Part shown: positions 10,983-23,455 of the stretch, in pieces
How the letters are laid out: every line of letters begins with the position of its first letter
Position numbering within the stretch: the first letter of the stretch is position 1
From: Chryseobacterium gleum
Lineage (GTDB): Bacteria; Bacteroidota; Bacteroidia; UBA10329
NCBI GenBank assembly: GCA_945903645.1
Contig: CAMDOM010000002.1
Span: 1 to 64,000, forward strand
Direction of reading: 5' to 3'
DNA length: 64,000 bases
Made by a program: the position numbers and the translations under genes
The notes under the pieces: generated by a model
What the model was told of the DNA's origin: nothing
Databases searched by the model: none
What the model saw: only the letters and a program-made list of their open reading frames with translations

Positions 10983-13900
10983 ATGCTACTATCACTTTTA
11001 GGAATGAAAAACCTTCGGTTTTTACTACCAATAGCACTCCTCTTCTGCGCAAGAACTGCTTCCTTCTCTCAAGTTTTCATCAATGAAGGATCCAACAAAA
11101 ACTATTCAAGTATATCGGACGAGAATGGAGACTTCCCAGATTGGATTGAGGTATACAATGCGGGAGGCACTGCAATTCAGCTCTTGGATTACGCATTAAG
11201 TGACGACCCTACCAATCCTACCAAATGGACTTTCCCAAACATTGAGCTACAACCTGGAGAGTTTAAGGTCATTTTTTGCAGTGGAAAAGATCGCAAGCCA
11301 GTTACTGGATTTGTAAACGTGTTAAACGAGCTTAATTACAATCCTGTTGTGGGATGGAATAATCATACGTTCACAACGCCTTTTTACTGGGACGGAAGTT
11401 CATCATTACTTTTAAATACCTGCTCCTATAGTTCAACAGGATACACCTCTAATTCCGTTTTTAATCAAAGTGCTACGTCCTATTATTCAACCATTTTTGC
11501 CTTTATAGATGGTGCTCCAAGTATTTGCGCTGCTGAATATGGAACTCGCGCGTTGCAACGACCCAACATAAAGCTGAACGATGTAACAATTGGCTCTGGT
11601 ATACAGCAAAATTCAGCAACAGACTATCCAGCGCCTTATGGAAACTGGTATTGGGCAGCAAAAAACCAAATGTTAATTCCAGCAGCAGAGCTGATTTCGG
11701 CTGGATTAACAGCCGGTGACATTTCTAGTTTCGCCTTTGATGTGGCATCAACTGACCCCAATACATTTTACGATTACATCGATTGTTCGATGAAGTTGGT
11801 TTCGTACGATGAGGTTACTTCCACTTTTGAAACCGTTGATACCAGCTTAAGCTTACACACGAATTTCAAAATCTCTAGTGATGGCGAAACCATTTACCTC
11901 TATTCTCCTTCGCAGCAATTATTGAGCTCTTTGGTTGTCAATTGCGGCCAAATTGATAATAGCGTTGGGCTCTCTCCAGACGCATCTTCGAATGTTGTGA
12001 TATTTGCCAATGGCACTCCAGATAGCACAAACAACGCCTCTCCAACATATTCCTCGTATTTATCACCACCAACAATTTCAGTTCCTTCTGGGCTCTACAA
12101 TAGCAGCATCTCGGTAAGTATTTCAAATCCAAACGGACCAGAAACCTCTTTAAGATATACGTTGAATGGTGATGATCCGAATCTAACTTCTACTCTCTAC
12201 AACGGAGCTCCAATTCCAGTTTTTTATTCTGGCGTATTAAAGGTAAAAGCGTTTTCCTCGAATGAATTGCCAAGTGAAACCGCTGTAGCAACCTATTTAT
12301 TTGGAATAAATCACGTCACTCCAATTCTATCTGTGGTAACAGATCAAGAGAACTTGTACGGTCCCGATGGCATTTTCGACAATTGGCAGTTTGATTGGGA
12401 AAAAGCGGCTTACGTAGAGTACTTCGATACCGCCCAACAACTCATTTTCTCACAACAAGCAGGAATTCAAATAGATGGAGGATATGGAGGTAGTCGTTTC
12501 CATCCGCAACATTCCTTTAGGGTAGAACTTGACGACCCCGTTTTGGGAGCTGGACCAATTACTTATCCCGTAATTCCAAACCGGGCGGAACGAACCAAAT
12601 TCAGTAAAATGTATTTGCGCAACGGAAGCAACTATTATCTAACCCTTCCTCACAAAGATGCAGCCCACGTGGAGGGAATGGCTGCAGAAACAAACAACTA
12701 TTACTCCGCTTGGCGACCAGTAACCGTATACATAAACGGAGCCTACTTTGGCTTGTATGAGCTTAGAGAAAAAATTGATGCAGAATATTTTGAAGAATTG
12801 GAAAATGCAGATTCAGATTCCATAGACATCCTTTCTCAGAGTGTTTGGAACGGAAGTGTGCTTCGAGCAGTGGAGGGTTCCGTGGATGACTTTTATGAAG
12901 ATTATGAAGCTTTTAATAGTTTGGACCCTGCTGATTCTAATTTTTGGAATGACGCGGATCAATACTTTGATATGACCTACTACAATGACTATATCATTGC
13001 AGAAACATGGGCAGGAAATATAGATTGGCCAGGAAACAACATCAAGATTTATCGTTCAAATACGAGCAATTTCCGATGGAGGTACTGTCTAATTGATTTG
13101 GAAGGCTCCATGAACCCTTTGGGCTTTTCTTCCGCATATGACGATCACATTGCTTATGTCTTAGGTGCTGACCCAAACAATCCTTATATAAATGTCTTTT
13201 TGAAAGGAATTCAAAATCCACGTTTCAGAAACTACTTTATCAATAGACATGCGGATTTAATGAACACATCCTATCAGTTTTCGAGGCTCTCGTCAATCGA
13301 AAATTCTATGTTCAATCAAACCGTAATTGAAATGCCAAAGCAATACGCACGCTGGGGCGACCCGAATAACATCAGTGGTCAAATGAACTCCTTTGTAGAA
13401 AATCATGACATATTTTTATCTGAGTTATCGGTAAGAACGGAACAAGTAAGAAACCATATTCAAAATAACTTTTCACTTGCCGCTCAGGTGGATGTGACCT
13501 TAGATGTATTTCCAGCGGGCGCTGGTAGGATAAAAATCAGCACAATAATACCAACTGAATTGCCTTGGACAGGGGTGTATTTTAACGGCAATCCTGTACA
13601 ATTAACTGCTATTCCTAATATTGGATATGAATTCGCCTATTGGGATGAGAATAATGTGCTAAGCGCTATAAACACTAACATTTCGATTAATCAAAACATC
13701 ACCTCGAGCACGCTTTATTTAGCAGTTTTCACGCCTTCCATAGAATTTGGAAACATTGCAATCACAGAAGTAAACTATAACTCGGATAGCACCAGGAATT
13801 CTGGCAATTGGATTGAATTTCATAACTATGGAAATGCTCAATTGGATGTTTCTGGATGGAGATTTACAGATAGCACTTTAAACAATAACTACATCTTCCC

Positions 13901-14990
13901 TTCAGGAAGTATAATGGAATCGGGGGATTATATCATTGTAGCGGAAGACATTACTTTATTTCAGTCTCAGTTTCCTTTGGTGCAAGCCTATGGCCCAACT
14001 GGGTTTGGTTTTAGTAATTCAAGTGAAGCCCTAACCTTATTTGACAATAACAATTTTCCAGTAATCAGCATGCATTATATGGATTCGCTTCCTTGGCCGA
14101 TAGCGGCAGATGGCTATGGAAAAACGTTGGAAATTATTGACCCTACATCAAATCCTGCTTTGGCTTCAAGTTGGTTTCCTGGTTGTATTGGTGGATCACC
14201 TGGAGGACCGTTTGTGCCATGCAACGAGGCCATCATTTTCAGCGAGATTAATTACAATTCGTCTGCCGATGCTGATACCGGAGATTGGGTGGAACTTCTC
14301 AATACTTCCAACACATCTGTAGATATTTCTGAATGGAAGTTTCGTGATGATGATGATACCCACAACTTCAACTTCCCGCCCAATACTATACTTCCGGGTT
14401 TAGGAAGAATAGTGATTGCTAAAGACCCCAGTCTTTTCCAAAGTCGCTTCCCATTAGTAGCTAACTATGTTGGGCCTTTTGACTTTGGTTTGAGCAGTTC
14501 AGGCGAAGCAATTCGAATATTCGATTCTTCTGGGAAATTATATAACTCAATGGTTTACGATGAAGCTATTTCCTGGCCTCAAGGTGCCAATGGAAACGGA
14601 TTTACGTTAGAATTGATTGATTCGGATGGCAACCTATGCGATGCATCCAATTGGGAAGATGGTTGCCCAGAAGGATCTCCAGGAACTGAATTTGTAACTC
14701 CCTGTTCAATTAACAGTGTTAACGATGCGGATTTTGGAACAGATGGAGCTGTCATTTTTCCCAATCCATCTTCGGGAGTATTCCAAATACAAGCGCCAAA
14801 TTCATACAATCAAAAATCCAAATTCATGGCCGAAGTCTATAATTATTTAGGCGAAAAAATATATTCCACCACCTTTTCATCTTTGAGCAATAGAATGACG
14901 CTTGATTTAACCGGATCGCCAAAAGGAGTTTATGTAATCCGAATTTGGATTGACAATCAATTTCAGGATAAAATCGTGGTACTCTCCTAG
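10983..14990 (+). CDS. Secreted CotH-like/lamin-tail-domain protein with T9SS sorting signal
   Basis: A 1335-residue surface or secreted protein. Domains in order: signal peptide (start at residue 1, or at M8, ATG 11004, which has an AGGA just upstream), first lamin-tail domain (about 30-150), an unassigned stretch, a chitobiase/hexosaminidase C-terminal-like beta domain (about 362-442, LRYTLNGDDPN), a CotH protein-kinase-like region (about 445-830) with the family mark YINGAYFGLYELREK, two further lamin-tail domains (about 921-1040 and 1083-1190), and a type IX sorting domain from about 1257 (FPNPSSGVFQ to KIVVLS). CotH proteins of spore formers phosphorylate coat proteins; the bacterial secreted versions are of unknown function. 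Single-gene unit ended by a strong terminator. Confidence 0.9.
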   Translation: MLLSLLGMKNLRFLLPIALLFCARTASFSQVFINEGSNKNYSSISDENGDFPDWIEVYNAGGTAIQLLDYALSDDPTNPTKWTFPNIELQPGEFKVIFCSGKDRKPVTGFVNVLNELNYNPVVGWNNHTFTTPFYWDGSSSLLLNTCSYSSTGYTSNSVFNQSATSYYSTIFAFIDGAPSICAAEYGTRALQRPNIKLNDVTIGSGIQQNSATDYPAPYGNWYWAAKNQMLIPAAELISAGLTAGDISSFAFDVASTDPNTFYDYIDCSMKLVSYDEVTSTFETVDTSLSLHTNFKISSDGETIYLYSPSQQLLSSLVVNCGQIDNSVGLSPDASSNVVIFANGTPDSTNNASPTYSSYLSPPTISVPSGLYNSSISVSISNPNGPETSLRYTLNGDDPNLTSTLYNGAPIPVFYSGVLKVKAFSSNELPSETAVATYLFGINHVTPILSVVTDQENLYGPDGIFDNWQFDWEKAAYVEYFDTAQQLIFSQQAGIQIDGGYGGSRFHPQHSFRVELDDPVLGAGPITYPVIPNRAERTKFSKMYLRNGSNYYLTLPHKDAAHVEGMAAETNNYYSAWRPVTVYINGAYFGLYELREKIDAEYFEELENADSDSIDILSQSVWNGSVLRAVEGSVDDFYEDYEAFNSLDPADSNFWNDADQYFDMTYYNDYIIAETWAGNIDWPGNNIKIYRSNTSNFRWRYCLIDLEGSMNPLGFSSAYDDHIAYVLGADPNNPYINVFLKGIQNPRFRNYFINRHADLMNTSYQFSRLSSIENSMFNQTVIEMPKQYARWGDPNNISGQMNSFVENHDIFLSELSVRTEQVRNHIQNNFSLAAQVDVTLDVFPAGAGRIKISTIIPTELPWTGVYFNGNPVQLTAIPNIGYEFAYWDENNVLSAINTNISINQNITSSTLYLAVFTPSIEFGNIAITEVNYNSDSTRNSGNWIEFHNYGNAQLDVSGWRFTDSTLNNNYIFPSGSIMESGDYIIVAEDITLFQSQFPLVQAYGPTGFGFSNSSEALTLFDNNNFPVISMHYMDSLPWPIAADGYGKTLEIIDPTSNPALASSWFPGCIGGSPGGPFVPCNEAIIFSEINYNSSADADTGDWVELLNTSNTSVDISEWKFRDDDDTHNFNFPPNTILPGLGRIVIAKDPSLFQSRFPLVANYVGPFDFGLSSSGEAIRIFDSSGKLYNSMVYDEAISWPQGANGNGFTLELIDSDGNLCDASNWEDGCPEGSPGTEFVTPCSINSVNDADFGTDGAVIFPNPSSGVFQIQAPNSYNQKSKFMAEVYNYLGEKIYSTTFSSLSNRMTLDLTGSPKGVYVIRIWIDNQFQDKIVVLS

Positions 14991-15072: not shown

Positions 15073-16206
15073 TTATTTTGAAAAGAACAACTCCTGCAAC
15101 TTGGAAATTACCACGTCTATTTCAGCGAAAGTGTTATACTTCCCGATGGAGAATCGTACTGCGGGCCGGGTAGAATTACCATTTATAGCAGCCAAAACGT
15201 GAGAACCCACACTGCTACCCGAACTGCAAGCACTTCCTCCAGAAGCACTAATACCCATAATATCTAAGTTAAAAAGCAGCATTTCTGAAATGGGCGAATC
15301 TGGAAAATTCACATTGAGCACGGTATAAAGCGAATTACCTTCTGCATCACCATTAAAACGCACATCTGGAATAATCTGCCGCAGCTTTTCAATCATATAT
15401 ATCTTCAAAGCAGCAATATGTTCATGGTGTTCAGCCATCCCGGCATTGGCTATTTCCATTGCTTTGGCAAGACCAACGATTCCATAAATATTCTCGGTGC
15501 CACCTCGCATATTGCGCTCTTGAGCACCCCCAAATAGCAATGGCTGAATCCGCACATTTGAATTCACATACAAAAAACCAACACCCTTTGGGCCATGAAA
15601 CTTATGAGCCGAACACGTGATAAAATCAATATCAAGCTCTTGAAGATTTATTGGATAGTGCGCCATAGTTTGCACCGTATCCGAATGAAAATAAGCTGCA
15701 TAAGCCCTACAATGCCTGGAAATTTCTTTCAAATCACAAAGGTTTCCAATCTCATTATTAGCGTGCATTAACGAAACCAACGTTGGCCCTTGTAAGCGCA
15801 ACAATTCCTCCAAATGGTTCATGTCCACATGTCCATTGGGAGTTAACCTGACGTAGCTCACGCATACTTTTTCCTCCTTTTCCAACGCATGAACCGTATG
15901 CAAAACTGCATGGTGTTCAATTGCAGAGGTGATAATATGTTTCACGCCCAAATCTCGAACCGAACACATGATGGCCATATTATCCGCCTCAGTACCGCCT
16001 GAAGTGAACAAGATTTCCGTAGGAGAAGCTTTAATAAATCCAGACACTTTTCTACGTGCTTTCTCAATTGCAGCTCTTGCTTCGCGACCATAACTATGTG
16101 TGGAAGAAGGATTGCCATAGGTTTCCTTCATCAATTCTGACATCGCTTCTATTACCTCATTATCCATTTGAGTAGTAGCCGCATTGTCGAGGTAAATCCG
16201 ATTCAT
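15073..16206 (-). CDS. Cysteine desulfurase (NifS/IscS family)
   Basis: A 377-residue PLP enzyme that removes sulfur from cysteine as an enzyme-bound persulfide for iron-sulfur clusters, thiolated tRNA or other products. Seen: YLDNAATT at the start, TSGGTEADN (68-76), the PLP lysine K202 in SAHKFHGPKG, RGGTEN at 234-239, and the catalytic cysteine C327 in SGGSACSSGS. The flexible active-site loop and SACSSG form place it in the group I (NifS/IscS) branch. Fourteen bases downstream of glmM, so very probably one operon. No iscU or other cluster-assembly gene is adjacent. Confidence 0.93.
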   Translation of the reverse strand: MNRIYLDNAATTQMDNEVIEAMSELMKETYGNPSSTHSYGREARAAIEKARRKVSGFIKASPTEILFTSGGTEADNMAIMCSVRDLGVKHIITSAIEHHAVLHTVHALEKEEKVCVSYVRLTPNGHVDMNHLEELLRLQGPTLVSLMHANNEIGNLCDLKEISRHCRAYAAYFHSDTVQTMAHYPINLQELDIDFITCSAHKFHGPKGVGFLYVNSNVRIQPLLFGGAQERNMRGGTENIYGIVGLAKAMEIANAGMAEHHEHIAALKIYMIEKLRQIIPDVRFNGDAEGNSLYTVLNVNFPDSPISEMLLFNLDIMGISASGGSACSSGSSVGSHVLAAINGNSTRPAVRFSIGKYNTFAEIDVVISKLQELFFSK

Positions 16207-16220
16207 AGTTTGGGTCCTAT

Positions 16221-17630
16221 TTAATTTGGGAATTTGGATTCAAGGCGCATCAATTCTTTGATATCGGCAATAATCTTGTTCGCCAAATTTGTGGCCGTGC
16301 TTTCGTTCTCACTTTCAGAATAAATACGAATAATGGGCTCTGTGTTTGACCTACGGAGATGAACCCATTCTTTATCAAACTCAATTTTCACACCATCAAC
16401 AGTATTGATTGGTTGCTTTTGGTACTTGTTTTTCACACCCTCTAATATGGTATCCACATCAGTTTCTGGCGTTAGCTCCACTTTATTTTTACTAATAAAG
16501 TAGTTGGGATAGCTTGCCCGAAGTTGACTTGCTGAAAGTCCCTTCTTGGACATGTGCGTTAAAAACAATGCGATTCCTACCAATGCATCTCGACCGTAAT
16601 GCAATTCGGGATAAATAATGCCGCCATTCCCTTCTCCACCAATAATTGCATTGGTAGATTTCATCATTTCCACAACATTCACCTCGCCTACAGCGCTGGT
16701 ATTGTAGGTTCCTCCTGCTTTTTCGGTCACATCGCGTAATGCTCGTGTAGAGGAAAGGTTAGACACGGTATTGCCAACTTGCTGCGATAAAACATAGTCC
16801 GCAACAGCCACAAGCGTATACTCTTCACCAAACATTTCACCATTTTCACAAACCATCGCCAACCGGTCCACATCAGGATCAACTACAAAACCAATATCGC
16901 CTCCCACTTTTTTAATGGTTCCTGATATTTCTGTTAAATGCTCAGGCAACGGTTCTGGATTGTGCGGAAAAAATCCATTTGGTTCGCAAAACAGTTCGGT
17001 GATTTTGGCTACGCCCAATGCTTTAAGCAATTTAGGAAGTACAATTCCACCCGTAGAATTCACACAATCAATCACCACATGATAGTTCATCTTTCGAATG
17101 GCGCTAACATCCACCAGTTTCATATCCAAAACCATAGCGATATGCCGCTCCATGTAGTCATCTATCTGAGTAACGGTGCCTAGCTGCTCCACAGCCGCAA
17201 ACTGAAACGACTCTTCTTCTGCGATACGCAACACCTCTTCGCCTTCAACCCCAGAAATAAATTCGCCTTTCTCATTCAGCAATTTCAAAGCATTCCATTG
17301 CTTCGGATTATGACTTGCGGTTAGAATGATACCACCCTGAGCTTTCTCTGCAGCAACGGCAACTTCTACGGTTGGCGTGGTAGATAAACCCAAATCAATT
17401 ACATCTATACCAGAGCCTATAAGGGTTCCAACCACCAGATGATTCACCATAGCCCCCGAAATACGGGCATCGCGACCAACCACCACTTTGGGGCGAGCCA
17501 CACCAGAACGTGCCTTTATAAGTTCTGCATAAGCTGCGGTAAACTTAACCGTATCTAAAGGGCTAAGCCCCTCTCCTACCCTTCCACCAATTGTTCCCCG
17601 AATACCAGAAATCGATTTAATTAACGCCAT
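16221..17630 (-). CDS. glmM: Phosphoglucosamine mutase
   Basis: A 469-residue cytoplasmic enzyme of the phosphohexomutase family that makes glucosamine-1-phosphate for peptidoglycan and lipopolysaccharide. Seen: the phosphoserine S106 in TASHNP, the metal loop DPDVDRLAM, the sugar-binding loop GEGNGGIIYP, and the phosphate-binding RRSNTEPIIRIY near the C-terminus. The N-terminal SISGIRGTIGG also fits. GlmM and phosphomannomutase are close; the loop sequence and length match Bacteroidota GlmM. First gene of a two-gene unit with cysteine desulfurase. Confidence 0.88.
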   Translation of the reverse strand: MALIKSISGIRGTIGGRVGEGLSPLDTVKFTAAYAELIKARSGVARPKVVVGRDARISGAMVNHLVVGTLIGSGIDVIDLGLSTTPTVEVAVAAEKAQGGIILTASHNPKQWNALKLLNEKGEFISGVEGEEVLRIAEEESFQFAAVEQLGTVTQIDDYMERHIAMVLDMKLVDVSAIRKMNYHVVIDCVNSTGGIVLPKLLKALGVAKITELFCEPNGFFPHNPEPLPEHLTEISGTIKKVGGDIGFVVDPDVDRLAMVCENGEMFGEEYTLVAVADYVLSQQVGNTVSNLSSTRALRDVTEKAGGTYNTSAVGEVNVVEMMKSTNAIIGGEGNGGIIYPELHYGRDALVGIALFLTHMSKKGLSASQLRASYPNYFISKNKVELTPETDVDTILEGVKNKYQKQPINTVDGVKIEFDKEWVHLRRSNTEPIIRIYSESENESTATNLANKIIADIKELMRLESKFPN

Positions 17631-17684: not shown

Positions 17685-17807
17685 CCCGTCCTTTGCAGTA
17701 TCAAAAGAAGTTGGTTTCATTTTTTGAACACAACTTGTTGATAATAACGAAGAGCTGATGCATTGGGGTTATTTGAATTTGAGTAGCCTTATCCAAAGTT
17801 TTTGGAC

Positions 17808-19214
17808 ATGAACACTGACCCAGAATCTGACAACGAATTCGAGCGCAACACTGAAAGTTTGGAGCGTTTTGAAAATATGCTGGCCAATGATGACCAGTAC
17901 TATTTTGACGTGGATGACCTTGAAGAGCTTGTGGAGCACTACATGCTTGTTTTCGACTTAGACAAAGCATGGAAAGTGCTGGAACTCGCATCGCAGCAAC
18001 ATCCTCACAACAGAGACTTTGAACTAAAACGGGCTGATATACTTGCTCTGAAGGGAGATGACGAAAATGCCTTAAAATCCATTGCTCTATTGGAGTCCAT
18101 AGATCCAACCAATGTGGAGATGCTTATTATGAAAGGCAGCATTCACAGCAAATTGGGCAAACACGAAGAAGCCATTCAGATTTACCAATCGGCCTTAGAG
18201 TTTGTGGAAGATACTAGCGAGCTCTACTTGCTTATCAGCTACGAATATGACACCATAGGAAACCGTCCAGAAGCCCTTTCGCAACTCAAAACTGCACTGC
18301 GCGAAAATCCAGAACAACAAGGGCTCATTTTCGAAATTAGTTTCTTGTACGACCTTATGGACACCCCTGAATTGGCTATTGAATACCTGAATAAACATCT
18401 GGATGAGTATCCCTATTCAAGTGGTGGATGGTTTAATCTCGCTACCTTTTATCGCAAGCTAAACGACCATCCCAGAGCCATTTGGGCATTGGAACTTTGT
18501 GTGGCTATTGATGATGAAGACGGCATGGTGCTTCAAGAATTGGGCGACTGCTACTTGGAGGCCGAAAACTGGGATAGAGCTCAGGTTCAATTTGAAGCGT
18601 TGCTCGAATTGGATGACGACCATCCAGATGCAATTGTTGGTCTGGCCGAATGCGCAGAAGGTCGCAAGGAGTTTGACCAAGCATTTGAATTGTATAAAAA
18701 AGCCACCGATCTTGATACCGAATGTGCCGAGGCTTGGTATGGAATGGCTGTGGTTAGGGAAAAGCAAGAACGCTATCATGAATGCCTTCCATATGTGAAC
18801 AGGGCGTTGGAAATAGATCCGATGGATGCTGAATTCTGGTTTTTCCTAGGTGATTTGCAAGAGCAGTTTTGTGAGTTTGAAAAAGCCGCAGAAGCATTTG
18901 AAAAAGCGCTAGAAACCGCACCAGACGAACCCCGATTTTGGCTTGCCAAGGCCCAATTGTATTTCCATCATTTAGATAGAGAAACTGGCATTGAAAGCTT
19001 GATGGAGGCTATAAAAATTACGCCCGATGACGCAGAATTACACTACCGAATTGCTGCGTTTCTAATGATTGCGGGTCAAGGTGGAGACGCGATGCATTAT
19101 TTGCAAAATGGCCTTGAAATTGATTTTGAGAAACATATCACGCTCTTTGATGAGTATCCAGAAGCCATACACAATCCACGTGTTATGGACTTGATTGGAA
19201 TTTACGGTCAATGA
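17808..19214 (+). CDS. Tetratricopeptide repeat protein
   Basis: A 468-residue acidic protein made almost wholly of TPR helices, with repeats such as AEAWYGMAVVREKQERYHE and AEFWFFLGDLQEQFCEFEK. There is no signal peptide or membrane segment, so it is probably a cytoplasmic scaffold. I start it at the ATG at 17808; an in-frame TTG six bases earlier is possible. The stop overlaps the start of the phosphosulfolactate synthase-rhodanese gene in an ATGA, which implies translational coupling and perhaps a shared task. Confidence 0.85.
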   Translation: MNTDPESDNEFERNTESLERFENMLANDDQYYFDVDDLEELVEHYMLVFDLDKAWKVLELASQQHPHNRDFELKRADILALKGDDENALKSIALLESIDPTNVEMLIMKGSIHSKLGKHEEAIQIYQSALEFVEDTSELYLLISYEYDTIGNRPEALSQLKTALRENPEQQGLIFEISFLYDLMDTPELAIEYLNKHLDEYPYSSGGWFNLATFYRKLNDHPRAIWALELCVAIDDEDGMVLQELGDCYLEAENWDRAQVQFEALLELDDDHPDAIVGLAECAEGRKEFDQAFELYKKATDLDTECAEAWYGMAVVREKQERYHECLPYVNRALEIDPMDAEFWFFLGDLQEQFCEFEKAAEAFEKALETAPDEPRFWLAKAQLYFHHLDRETGIESLMEAIKITPDDAELHYRIAAFLMIAGQGGDAMHYLQNGLEIDFEKHITLFDEYPEAIHNPRVMDLIGIYGQ

Positions 19215-20335
19215 TGAATTTCGAATTACCATTTTTACCAACACGGCCCCAAAAGCCTCGGCAGTCGGGCATTACAATGGTAATGGACAAAGGCTTAAGC
19301 CTGCGCCAAGCTGAGGATTTAATTGAATCGAGCGGACATCTTACCGATTTGGTAAAGCTTGGATTCGGAACCTCGTTTGTGGGTCGAAACATTCTGGAGA
19401 AAGTAAAACTATATCGTAGTGCTGGCTTGGATGTGTACTTGGGCGGAACCCTATTTGAAGCCTTCATTATTAGAGGAAAACTGGTTGATTACAAGCGCAT
19501 GGTGAATAGCCTCGGCATTGGCATGATTGAGGTGTCGGATGGGTCTATTTCGCTGCACCACAGCAAAAAGTGTGAGCTTATACAAAACCTTTCTAGAGAA
19601 TACACCGTGCTAAGTGAGGTAGGCTCCAAAGAATCGGGCATCATTATTCATCCCGGAAAATGGAAGAAAATGATGTTGGCGGAATTGGATGCTGGTTCAT
19701 GGAAAGTGATTGCCGAAGCACGTGAAAGCGGCACAGTGGGTATTTACCGACCCAATGGTTCGGCTCACGTTTCGCTTATCAATAAAATACTTGGCGTGGT
19801 GCCAGCCGACAAAGTAATTTGGGAAGCACCGCAAAAGGAACAGCAGGTGTGGTTTATCAACCTGCTAGGCGCCAACGTTAATTTGGGAAACATTGCGCCT
19901 GCCGAAGTTATTCCACTCGAAACCTTACGTGTAGGCCTGCGTGGCGATACGTTTTTCAATCATTTGCCTGAAACCATTGATGCAAATAAGGCAGTTCACT
20001 TAACTAAAGACACAACAATGAAAGAGATTTCGGTTAAAGAATTGAAGGCAAAAATGGATGCCAAAGAAACATTTCAACTGATAGATATTCGCGAAGATTG
20101 GGAAATTGAAGTGTGTACCATTGGCGGATTGCACATCCCTATGGGTGAGATATTAACCCGAGTGGATGAAATTCGCACAGACATCCCCGTAATTCTACAA
20201 TGTAGAAGCGGTGGTCGCTCTGCCAACGTGGTAAATGCCTTGGAATCACGGTTTGCCTTGAAAAATCTTTACAATCTGAAAGGTGGAATCTTGGCTTGGG
20301 CCGACCAAATTGATTCTTCTGTCGAGAAATATTGA
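19211..20335 (+). CDS. Phosphosulfolactate synthase-like protein fused to rhodanese domain
   Basis: A 374-residue two-domain protein. Residues 1-255 are a ComA/HSA32-type phosphosulfolactate synthase, which in methanogens adds sulfite to phosphoenolpyruvate; family marks are QKPRQSGITMVMDKG, KLGFGTSF, LSEVGSK, IWEAPQKEQQVWFI, NVNLGNIAP and LETLRVGLRGDT. Residues about 270-374 are a rhodanese domain with active-site loop CRSGGRS, cysteine C331, and IDIREDWE earlier. An internal Met at 270 sits exactly at the domain boundary. The synthase domain alone is widespread in Bacteroidota; I know of no characterised fusion like this. It is coupled by ATGA overlap to the TPR gene. Substrate and product are inferred from family. 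Confidence 0.85.
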   Translation: MMNFELPFLPTRPQKPRQSGITMVMDKGLSLRQAEDLIESSGHLTDLVKLGFGTSFVGRNILEKVKLYRSAGLDVYLGGTLFEAFIIRGKLVDYKRMVNSLGIGMIEVSDGSISLHHSKKCELIQNLSREYTVLSEVGSKESGIIIHPGKWKKMMLAELDAGSWKVIAEARESGTVGIYRPNGSAHVSLINKILGVVPADKVIWEAPQKEQQVWFINLLGANVNLGNIAPAEVIPLETLRVGLRGDTFFNHLPETIDANKAVHLTKDTTMKEISVKELKAKMDAKETFQLIDIREDWEIEVCTIGGLHIPMGEILTRVDEIRTDIPVILQCRSGGRSANVVNALESRFALKNLYNLKGGILAWADQIDSSVEKY

Positions 20336-20436: not shown

Positions 20437-21072
20437 ATGATTGAATTATTTCAGCACATTCTTGACCTCGATTTTCCGTGGCTTTTTAAAACATATGACA
20501 CCTATATCTACGCTATTCTTTTTCTAGTAATATTTATCGAAACTGGGTTGGTAATAATGCCTTTTTTACCTGGCGATTCGCTATTGTTTACTGCAGGATT
20601 GTTTGCGCATTCGGGCTATTTGAACATGGCTGCATTAACCATGCTGCTGTTTGTAGCGGCCGTGTTGGGCGACAATACCAACTACTTTATTGGGAAGTAC
20701 ATTGGGCTGCGCATATTGAAATTGAAGTTGGGTGGTCGTGTGTTGGTAAAGCAAGAACACTTAGACACTACCCACGCTTTTTATGAGAAGTATGGCCCCA
20801 AAACCATAATCATGGCCCGCTTCGTGCCCATCGTTCGCACCTTCGCTCCGTTTGTAGCTGGCATTGCAGAAATGACGCCAATGAAGTTTTTCACCTACAA
20901 TGTGGTGGGTGGTGCAGTGTGGGTATTTGGCCTTACCACAGCGGGCTATTTCTTAGGAGAATTCGACATCATCAAAAACAATATCGGAAAGGTGGCATTA
21001 GGTATCGTTGGCATATCGGTGTTGCCAATGGTGTTCGAATTTGTGAAATACCAGATGCAAAAGAAGGCGTGA
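20437..21072 (+). CDS. DedA/VTT family membrane protein
   Basis: A 211-residue inner-membrane protein of the DedA (SNARE-associated, VTT) family. Hydrophobic segments alternate with the family marks FLPGDSLLFTAG and ARFVPIVRTFAPFVAG, the latter with the conserved arginines. DedA members act in membrane homeostasis and in recycling of undecaprenyl phosphate or phospholipids. The stop overlaps the GTG start of aroE by four bases (GTGA). Confidence 0.9.
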   Translation: MIELFQHILDLDFPWLFKTYDTYIYAILFLVIFIETGLVIMPFLPGDSLLFTAGLFAHSGYLNMAALTMLLFVAAVLGDNTNYFIGKYIGLRILKLKLGGRVLVKQEHLDTTHAFYEKYGPKTIIMARFVPIVRTFAPFVAGIAEMTPMKFFTYNVVGGAVWVFGLTTAGYFLGEFDIIKNNIGKVALGIVGISVLPMVFEFVKYQMQKKA

Positions 21073-21809
21073 GAACCTTTGGCTTAGTTGGACATGGGCT
21101 TTCGCACTCATTTTCAAAAGGATACTTCGAGGCCAAGTTTAAAACACTTGGCATCTCTGCCACTTATCGCAATATTGATGTAACCTCTGCTGGTGCTGCA
21201 ATTGAAGAACTGCAAAATGACACCTCTTTGGTTGGGGTTAATGTGACTATACCATTCAAAACGGCTATCATCCCTTTTTTGGATGCGATAGATGCCAAAG
21301 CCAAATCGATACAAGCAGTAAATACCATTAAAGTGGAGCGCACAGGAAGCGCTATTCGCCTCATTGGCTACAATACGGATGTGATAGGATTTAAAGGAAG
21401 CATTGGCCCGTTGCTTCAACCGCATCATACCGCTGCACTTATTTTGGGTACAGGAGGTGCGGCCAAGGCTGCTTGTCATGTACTTTCAGATTTGGGATTG
21501 AATTGCCTCACAGTTTCGCGCGAAAAGGATAAAGGCGACCTGACCTATGCCCAATTGACACCTTTGTTGGTAGCGCAGCATACCGTTATTGCAAACTGCA
21601 CCCCTGTGGGCATGTTTCCCCATATAGATAACATGCCCCAACTGGCCTATGGAGCCATTGGCGCAAAGCATTTACTGTTTGATATGGTATACAACCCAAT
21701 GGAGACGCTATTTTTGAAAGTTGGACTTGAACACGGTGCCACAGTGTGCAATGGCCTCGAAATGTTGCACCTGCAAGCCGAGGCAAGTTGGGAAATTTGG
21801 AATCATTAG
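21069..21809 (+). CDS. aroE: Shikimate dehydrogenase
   Basis: A 246-residue cytoplasmic NADP-dependent enzyme reducing 3-dehydroshikimate to shikimate in aromatic amino acid synthesis. Seen: LSHSFSKGYF (substrate-binding SxS), NVTIPFK with catalytic K64, YNTD with D104, and the nucleotide loop LGTGGAAKA at 126-134. The frame is open much further upstream, but that part lies inside the DedA gene and is unrelated; the GTG at 21069 overlapping the DedA stop puts the first strand (VRTFGLVGHGLSHS) in the right place. A GTG start with a four-base overlap indicates translational coupling. Confidence 0.92.
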   Translation: MRTFGLVGHGLSHSFSKGYFEAKFKTLGISATYRNIDVTSAGAAIEELQNDTSLVGVNVTIPFKTAIIPFLDAIDAKAKSIQAVNTIKVERTGSAIRLIGYNTDVIGFKGSIGPLLQPHHTAALILGTGGAAKAACHVLSDLGLNCLTVSREKDKGDLTYAQLTPLLVAQHTVIANCTPVGMFPHIDNMPQLAYGAIGAKHLLFDMVYNPMETLFLKVGLEHGATVCNGLEMLHLQAEASWEIWNH

Positions 21810-21846
21810 CACTAAAACGTATCAAAACGAACCGAAACACATTAAA

Positions 21847-22665
21847 ATGCAATTTAACGGAACCGAACATTATATAGCCTCAAACGAACTGCAAGTGGCA
21901 GTGAATGCAGCTATCCATTTGCAAAAACCGCTACTTATAAAAGGCGAACCTGGCACAGGAAAGACCTTGCTTGCACATGAAGTAGCCAAAGCTTTGGGGA
22001 AAAAGCTCATTACTTGGCACATAAAATCGACCACAAAGGCACAACAGGGATTGTATGATTATGATGCTGTGTCGAGGCTGCGCGATAGCCAATTAGGTAG
22101 CGAAAAGGTACATGATATTGCCAATTATATTGTAAAAGGCAAGCTATGGGAAGCCTTTGATGCAGACGAAACCGTGATTCTACTTATTGATGAAATAGAC
22201 AAGGCGGACATTGAGTTTCCGAACGACTTGCTGCTGGAATTGGACAAGATGGAATTTTTCTGCTATGAACTGAACCGCACCATTGTGGCAAAACACCGCC
22301 CCATCATCATCATCACATCCAACAACGAGAAGGAACTGCCCGATGCTTTCTTGCGCAGATGTTTATTTCACTTTATTCGTTTTCCAGATGAGGCGCAGAT
22401 GAAGCAAATTGTTGATGTGCACCACCCTGGATTGAAGCAAGAATTGCTTGACCGCGCTTTTGGGCATTTTTACCGCTTACGCAAAGTAAACGGCATTAAA
22501 AAGAAACCGAGCACAAGCGAACTTATTGATTGGATTACGCTACTTCTTCGTGACGACTTGCTGAAAAACGAGGAAGATGGCGCGGCCTCAAAACTACCTC
22601 CACACTTGGGTAGCCTAATAAAAAACGAGCAGGATTTAATGCTACTAGAGCGATTTTTGAAGTAG
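21847..22665 (+). CDS. MoxR-type AAA+ ATPase
   Basis: A 272-residue AAA+ ATPase. Walker A is GEPGTGKT (33-40), Walker B ILLIDEID (111-118), and a sensor-1 stretch IITSNNEKELPDAFLRR follows. Short MoxR-like proteins of this kind serve as chaperones for metal-cofactor insertion, usually beside a von Willebrand factor A gene; no such partner is next to it here. I chose the ATG at 21847 because the longer frame from 21721 overlaps aroE. The C-terminal ten codons are echoed 0.9 kb downstream beyond the sulfotransferase gene. Confidence 0.87.
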   Translation: MQFNGTEHYIASNELQVAVNAAIHLQKPLLIKGEPGTGKTLLAHEVAKALGKKLITWHIKSTTKAQQGLYDYDAVSRLRDSQLGSEKVHDIANYIVKGKLWEAFDADETVILLIDEIDKADIEFPNDLLLELDKMEFFCYELNRTIVAKHRPIIIITSNNEKELPDAFLRRCLFHFIRFPDEAQMKQIVDVHHPGLKQELLDRAFGHFYRLRKVNGIKKKPSTSELIDWITLLLRDDLLKNEEDGAASKLPPHLGSLIKNEQDLMLLERFLK

Positions 22666-22690: not shown

Positions 22691-23455
22691 ATGGCCATGT
22701 TATACAATCGTATTGCCATTGGTTTGGCGCGAAGAATAAAACGGTTTTACACCTCATTCTTCGGTTATCGCGATTACCGAAAATTCGTGATTATAAGTCG
22801 TTCCCGCACAGGTTCTACCTTGTTGATGTCGCTGCTTGATAGCCATCCCAACATAGAATGTGTAGGAGAGATTTTTAAGAACACACAAGGCATTGCCCCT
22901 TTTACGGTTTGGGTTCGATATTTTGGAAAACGACTAAAGCGCATAAAGGCTGTTGGATTTCGGATGTTTTATTACCATCCCGAAAATGGTGACCAAAAAG
23001 TTTGGGAATTACTGAAGGCAGATTCTTCGATTGTTATTGTTCACCTTACGCGGCAGCATTTGTTGCGCATGTTATTATCACAGCGAATTGGCGTAAAAAC
23101 GAACAGGTGGAAGCAACGGGAAAATGAAAAAACACCCTTAGCCTTAAGGGATAAACAAATTTACCTGTCTGTATTGGAATGCGAAGCTTTCTTTTTAGAC
23201 ACGACAAGATTTGAACGCGAAACCCGCCAATCTTTTGTTAACCACACTGTAATAGAACTAGTGTATGAAGACTTGGTGGCCAACAAATCTCGTGCTCTTC
23301 TTCCCGTATTTGAAGGATTTAAGGTGCCCACAGTGACTACCACAACAGACTTGATTAAACAAAACAAAGAGTTTTTGTCAGAGCTGTGTGTAAATTATTT
23401 GGAGCTAAAATCGTATTTCATCAATTCGGAATGGGCACATTTATTTGACGAATAA
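22691..23455 (+). CDS. Sulfotransferase family protein
   Basis: A 254-residue protein with the 5'-phosphosulfate-binding loop of PAPS sulfotransferases, SRSRTGSTLL at about 36-45, followed by SHPNIECVGEIF, as in Stf0-like and lipid or glycan sulfotransferases. The later segment IVHLTRQHLLRMLLS matches the 3'-phosphate-binding region. It likely transfers sulfate to a lipid or sugar hydroxyl; the acceptor is unknown. It starts 25 bases after the ATPase gene and lies between that gene and a decayed duplicate of the ATPase gene's end, which suggests that it arrived by insertion. Confidence 0.8.
   Translation: MAMLYNRIAIGLARRIKRFYTSFFGYRDYRKFVIISRSRTGSTLLMSLLDSHPNIECVGEIFKNTQGIAPFTVWVRYFGKRLKRIKAVGFRMFYYHPENGDQKVWELLKADSSIVIVHLTRQHLLRMLLSQRIGVKTNRWKQRENEKTPLALRDKQIYLSVLECEAFFLDTTRFERETRQSFVNHTVIELVYEDLVANKSRALLPVFEGFKVPTVTTTTDLIKQNKEFLSELCVNYLELKSYFINSEWAHLFDE

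Follow-up and report, generated by a model that had tools for sequence, protein, structure and literature searches.

Phosphosulfolactate synthase (ComA) joins sulfite to phosphoenolpyruvate (PEP) to form (R)-phosphosulfolactate, which ComB then dephosphorylates (PMC5695019). Among solved structures, the protein analyzed here matches in its first part the phosphosulfolactate synthases of B. subtilis (1u83) and M. jannaschii (1qwg; EC 4.4.1.19), and in its second part small rhodaneses. Rhodaneses occur as single domains and as the C-terminal part of MoeZ/MOCS3, and the persulfide dioxygenase-rhodanese BpPRF (5ve3-5ve5) provides a described case in which, likewise, a rhodanese is joined to a sulfite-handling enzyme. 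Our literature search found no paper naming phosphosulfolactate synthase together with a rhodanese, and searches on the bacterial phosphosulfolactate pathway gave methanogen or incidental papers. The fusion described below is a new combination of already known parts.

Domain architecture of the fused protein

The window, by which we mean the whole stretch of 64,000 nucleotides that was analyzed, encodes a ComA domain and a rhodanese domain in one reading frame. Its parts are as follows.

19211..20335, + strand: ComA-rhodanese fusion gene, 374 aa, a single uninterrupted ORF, with a fused orthologue in L031/L157
19241..19948, + strand: ComA domain, residues 11-246 (Pfam PF02679; alignment of 97 Bacteroidia ComA plus 1qwg and 1u83)
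19628-19630, + strand: codon of K140, aligned to M. jannaschii K137 in the same 97-ComA alignment
19958..20017, + strand: interdomain linker of 20 aa, NHLPETIDANKAVHLTKDTT, with low pLDDT, standing where unfused relatives have a stop/start overlap
20018..20020, + strand: internal ATG (M270), corresponding to the initiation codon of the stand-alone rhodanese gene of relatives and a possible internal start
20018..20332, + strand: rhodanese domain, residues 270-374 (Pfam PF00581), with catalytic Cys331 at 20201-20203 in the loop CRSGGRS

An earlier note on this DNA had described the two domains and an intact CRSGGRS loop, a description borne out by the ORF, by Cys331 and by the Pfam matches, which cover residues 11-246 for PF02679 (E 7.7e-85, profile positions 2-243 of 243) and residues 274-365 for PF00581 (E 1.6e-10). 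In an AlphaFold2 model built from 46 aligned sequences (mean pLDDT 86.9, pTM 0.65), both domains are confident, block means fall to 49-68 over residues 231-270, and residues 259-267 lie below 50. The pTM value is as expected for two predicted domains joined by a flexible link. A Foldseek search with this model placed the two ComA structures 1qwg and 1u83 on top, and the C-terminal part retrieved small rhodaneses.

The window protein shares with M. jannaschii ComA the fold (TM-score 0.88 by target length), the Pfam family and a set of conserved residues, that at the K137 position among them, but adds a C-terminal rhodanese. The best sequence match among solved structures is the bacterial B. subtilis enzyme (residues 4-249, E 4.2e-48), which lacks a rhodanese and also some residues, K27 and D110 for example, that the archaeal enzymes and those of Bacteroidia have in common. 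The rhodanese part carries its active-site Cys in a six-residue loop and resembles in this Cys loop the single-domain rhodaneses and MoeZ/MOCS3, and its strongest NCBIfam matches are MoeB/MoeZ C-termini (E 1e-16, well below the family cut-offs); its partner is ComA, whereas that of MoeZ/MOCS3 is an adenylyltransferase. In BpPRF the partner is a dioxygenase rather than a TIM-barrel synthase, and the two fusions have unrelated origins.

Origin of the fusion

The methionine at the domain joint had been read as a hint that two once separate genes merged, and relatives of the same genus confirm this reading. In the five unfused genomes in which the full comA was read (G001, G002, G003, G005 and G006), comA and the rhodanese gene are separate neighbors, as they also are in G008, where the contig begins within comA. 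In G001, G002, G003 and G008, an ATGA overlap joins the end of comA to the beginning of the rhodanese gene, and in the remaining two of the six genomes a short or longer spacer separates the genes. The old rhodanese ATG is still in frame within the fused genes as M270, a column that holds M in 54 of 58 aligned sequences, and it may still yield free rhodanese.

A fused orthologue, 78% identical and with an identical junction, was found in a second species of the genus, G004, whose genome seems to be identical with that of L031 (Flavobacteriales MAG Tobar13m-G24). This second, separate genome rules out an assembly artefact, and with it the concern that the stop had been lost only in this assembly. 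With mismatches per codon position used in place of dS, the two fused genes differ at 0.16/0.10/0.58 in the ComA part and at 0.27/0.12/0.60 in the rhodanese part, a concentration by codon position which argues that both domains are constrained as protein, in the manner of purifying selection. We regard the fusion of this genus as evolutionarily young, within an old gene pair.

Distribution among Bacteroidia

A ComA homologue was detected in 324 of the 396 Bacteroidia genomes sampled. Further fusions, for which the earlier note had proposed a search, were sought among long open frames and were found in family f4 (four genomes, all four read) and in one genome of family f45; the other long ComA frames were N-terminal open-frame extensions. 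One more f4 genome, G123, is a candidate, with an open frame as long as those of the fused f4 genomes. The linkers measure 25 aa in f4, 37 aa in f45 and 20 aa in this genus, without evident mutual similarity.

In the phylogeny built from 97 ComA proteins, every genome with a comA-adjacent or fused rhodanese falls into one clade (support 98/100), and the adjacency of the two genes is, by this comparison, old and widespread. Several lineages within the clade have no rhodanese beside comA; therefore, the rhodanese is not essential to ComA. The fused label requires three changes on this tree (bootstrap 3-3), in which the two fused proteins of this genus group with their unfused relatives (support 100/96). 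However, a topology forcing all fusions into one clade was not rejected (p-AU 0.277), so the ComA tree could not be taken as proof of independent fusions, and the rhodanese tree had too few columns to settle their number. The fusions in three families probably represent two or three separate events, with a single origin also compatible (p-AU 0.28).

One sampled locus (L032), on a contig titled Chryseobacterium gleum, carries comA and, downstream of it, the first part of an unfused rhodanese gene. Characterized C. gleum makes cysteate by the phosphoserine route, so the species label of this locus may be wrong.

The comA operon and its neighbors

The locus has a conserved order, namely TPR, comA, the rhodanese where present, DUF368 or DedA, and aroE; in several families, glmM and a cysteine desulfurase gene lie divergently on the other flank. 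In the window, the neighbors are as follows.

17802..19214, + strand: TPR-repeat protein, in ATGA overlap with the comA start; of 95 loci with enough upstream sequence, 86 have such a gene before comA
20437..21072, + strand: DedA-family membrane protein, in the slot held by DUF368 in several relatives
20919..21809, + strand: aroE (shikimate dehydrogenase), match beginning at residue 52
16221..17630, - strand: glmM-type phosphoglucosamine mutase, a divergent neighbor conserved in several families
15073..16206, - strand: NifS/IscS-type cysteine desulfurase, a divergent neighbor conserved beside glmM in several families
22691-23455: sulfotransferase-like gene

Because the aroE match begins at residue 52, the true start of this gene is probably near 21070. 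DUF368 and DedA proteins have both been reported as undecaprenyl-phosphate translocases (PMC9876793), and the two were never detected together in one locus. Loci with a rhodanese comprise 26 with DedA, 20 with DUF368 and 13 with neither; loci without one comprise 3, 7 and 26, respectively. Even within the genus, the window and G008 carry DedA and other members carry DUF368, including the closest fused relative of the window (slot compared with L112/L157), so that one transporter has naturally been exchanged for another, unrelated one.

The cysteine desulfurase and the sulfotransferase-like gene lie where the earlier note had located them. The latter was set aside as a functional neighbor, since it is missing from the related loci sampled. 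A MadB-like AAA ATPase gene (21721-22665) adjoins aroE; it also has counterparts by the operon in L158 and L159 (G002 and G006, respectively), and a weak one in L157 (G004). Elsewhere in the window, 10983-14990 encodes a 1335-aa protein with a type IX secretion sorting domain at its C-terminus.

This arrangement bears on whether the tether has any function. The fusion might be a by-product of overlapping neighbors, in which a minor shift of frame erased the stop of comA while each domain kept its own job. One small indel would have been enough given the ATGA overlap of the unfused relatives; moreover, the domains are connected by a short, variable linker with predicted disorder, the internal ATG is kept, and the operon includes genes with no clear link to the pathway (the flippase and aroE). 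Nevertheless, two species of the genus have kept the fusion at 78% identity, as have all four f4 genomes that were read; three families have fusions; and the adjacency of comA and the rhodanese gene is itself old and widespread. We therefore regard a functionless tether as rather unlikely and favor a fusion whose two parts cooperate.

Reaction of the ComA domain and co-occurrence with ComB

At 51 positions, the residue of M. jannaschii ComA recurs in no fewer than 93 of the 96-97 Bacteroidia proteins in the comparison. K140 is present in 97 of 97 Bacteroidia ComA proteins and corresponds to M. jannaschii K137, which we take to be a catalytic residue of that enzyme. The domain scored 252.7 bits against the NCBIfam archaeal equivalog TIGR03849, missing the cut-off of 280, and is therefore not filed as an archaeal equivalog.

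A ComB gene was found in the genome of the window (G000:C4:99160-99798, E 2.2e-72, above the Pfam cut-off); its matches to the NCBIfam phosphosulfolactate phosphatase models are all below their cut-offs. Here comB (L160:8107-8823) sits after gcvT, unlinked to comA. Across the class, ComB was detected in 64 of 65 ComA-positive genomes and in 14 of 71 ComA-negative genomes (Fisher p 1.9e-23), a p-value that kinship makes overstated even though the ComA-positive genomes were taken mostly one per family. Within the sample, entire families that have no ComA, for example f11, f32, f53 and f62, are also devoid of ComB.

The conserved residues and the co-occurrence with ComB back the assignment of a phosphosulfolactate synthase made in the earlier note. 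We infer phosphosulfolactate synthesis as the reaction of the ComA domain; the conserved active sites together with ComB make sulfolactate synthesis its likely function, one that probably extends across most Bacteroidia.

Fate of the product

No ComC-type (Ldh_2) dehydrogenase was detected in the genome of the window, in contrast to the M. jannaschii system, and coenzyme M synthesis is not expected in this organism. Of 27 genomes tested in the rhodanese clade, 25 likewise yielded no such dehydrogenase, but it was found in 10 of 13 ComA-positive genomes lacking a rhodanese (carriers include G085, G021, G042 and G017) and in 4 of 40 ComA-negative genomes. This pattern may reflect a different fate of sulfolactate or mere shared ancestry; here, sulfolactate may be the end product, or another dehydrogenase may act on it.

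The earlier note had envisaged a path to sulfonolipids, which found no support. The ComC-type enzyme was not found, and in characterized sulfonolipid producers the start point is phosphoserine, according to the passages of PMC11211663 on cysteate synthase, sulfite and phosphoserine; neither those passages nor a second sulfonolipid paper, PMC9304779, describe a sulfolactate or sulfopyruvate route.

The absence of ComC-type Ldh_2 from this genome and most of the clade would also fit a ComA-like domain that performs a different reaction in Bacteroidia, as may plant HSA32-type relatives, with the rhodanese serving that reaction. The score under the archaeal ComA cut-off points the same way, and the operon context (aroE and the C55-P flippase) gives no pointer to a sulfonate. 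However, the residues around the active site are identical to those of M. jannaschii ComA, and ComB co-occurs strongly, so we consider a different reaction improbable and retain sulfolactate synthesis.

The rhodanese domain and a possible supply of sulfite

C331, D292, R294 and G334 are invariant in 59 of 59 paired or fused rhodaneses, as is E295, and the rhodanese domain is therefore probably active. The earlier note had proposed that it feeds sulfite to the synthase. In the two fused species of the genus (G000 and G004), neither a sulfite reductase nor a cysteine dioxygenase was found, and no match to APS/PAPS reductase passed E 1e-30. Each has a single weak, CysD-sized match to the PAPS-reductase family, in open frames of 304 and 307 aa, respectively. 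The first of these (G000:C7:36451-36960) belongs to the genome of the window, where activated sulfate may serve sulfotransferases such as that at 22691-23455. Among unfused members of the genus, G002, G005 and G006 have both APS/PAPS reductase and sulfite reductase, G008 has APS/PAPS reductase with sulfite reductase not found, and neither was found in G001 and G003 (70% and 83% complete), a comparison that involves incomplete assemblies (95%) and close relatives, which are non-independent samples.

Across 77 ComA-positive genomes, the reductase occurs in 22 of 46 with a paired rhodanese and in 12 of 31 without (p 0.49), and the f4 and f45 fusions retain it. The pairing thus does not follow reductase loss, and the rhodanese found no support as a general substitute for sulfate reduction. 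Cysteine dioxygenase was likewise dismissed as the sulfite source, being present in 12 of 77 genomes only and not in that of the window. Therefore, the proposal of sulfite feeding fits the enzyme complement of this lineage, but not a class-wide rule. It is plausible here, since no route from sulfate to sulfite was detected and release of sulfite would therefore matter most in this lineage; both channelling and the direction in which the rhodanese works are hypothetical.

The same direction could be reversed for detoxification, with the rhodanese using a persulfide donor, such as the product of the neighboring cysteine desulfurase, to turn excess sulfite into thiosulfate, and ComA acting as a second sink. 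The fused species of the genus, in which no sulfite reductase was found, would face sulfite without that sink; a cysteine desulfurase gene adjoins the operon in several families; and BpPRF (5ve3 being among the sequence matches) sets a precedent for joining a rhodanese to a sulfite enzyme. However, the co-occurrence with ComB favors synthesis of a product over simple disposal, and a sulfite-generating enzyme was not found nearby. We regard detoxification as quite unlikely compared with a supply of sulfite for synthesis.

Discussion

Overall, the fusion, its ancestry, the conserved active sites of both domains, purifying selection and the co-occurrence with ComB are evident from sequence comparison, and we provide a putative mechanism, to which we assign a probability of roughly 40%, for a bifunctional enzyme made from merged overlapping operon genes. 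Two neighboring genes whose translation overlaps, both part of a conserved Bacteroidia operon (TPR, comA, rhodanese, C55-P flippase, aroE), would have merged. The ComA domain would condense sulfite with phosphoenolpyruvate to (R)-phosphosulfolactate, and the separately encoded ComB would strip the phosphate to give sulfolactate. Most likely, the rhodanese would take sulfane sulfur from thiosulfate, forming a persulfide on Cys331, and free sulfite for the tethered synthase. The fusion suggests that the two parts cooperate in making sulfolactate.

We also considered a broader view, in which most Bacteroidia run a ComA and ComB sulfolactate pathway apart from coenzyme M, and one large clade gained a thiosulfate-to-sulfite rhodanese that was fused to ComA more than once. 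We hold this extension to be tentative and somewhat unlikely as a whole.

The repeated fusion of two sulfur enzymes suggests joint action, and the fusion offers a single purifiable protein for testing thiosulfate as a supply of sulfite for a carbon-sulfur bond. Beyond this genus, ComA and ComB co-occur almost perfectly, which predicts that a large share of Bacteroidia would make the C3 sulfonate sulfolactate.
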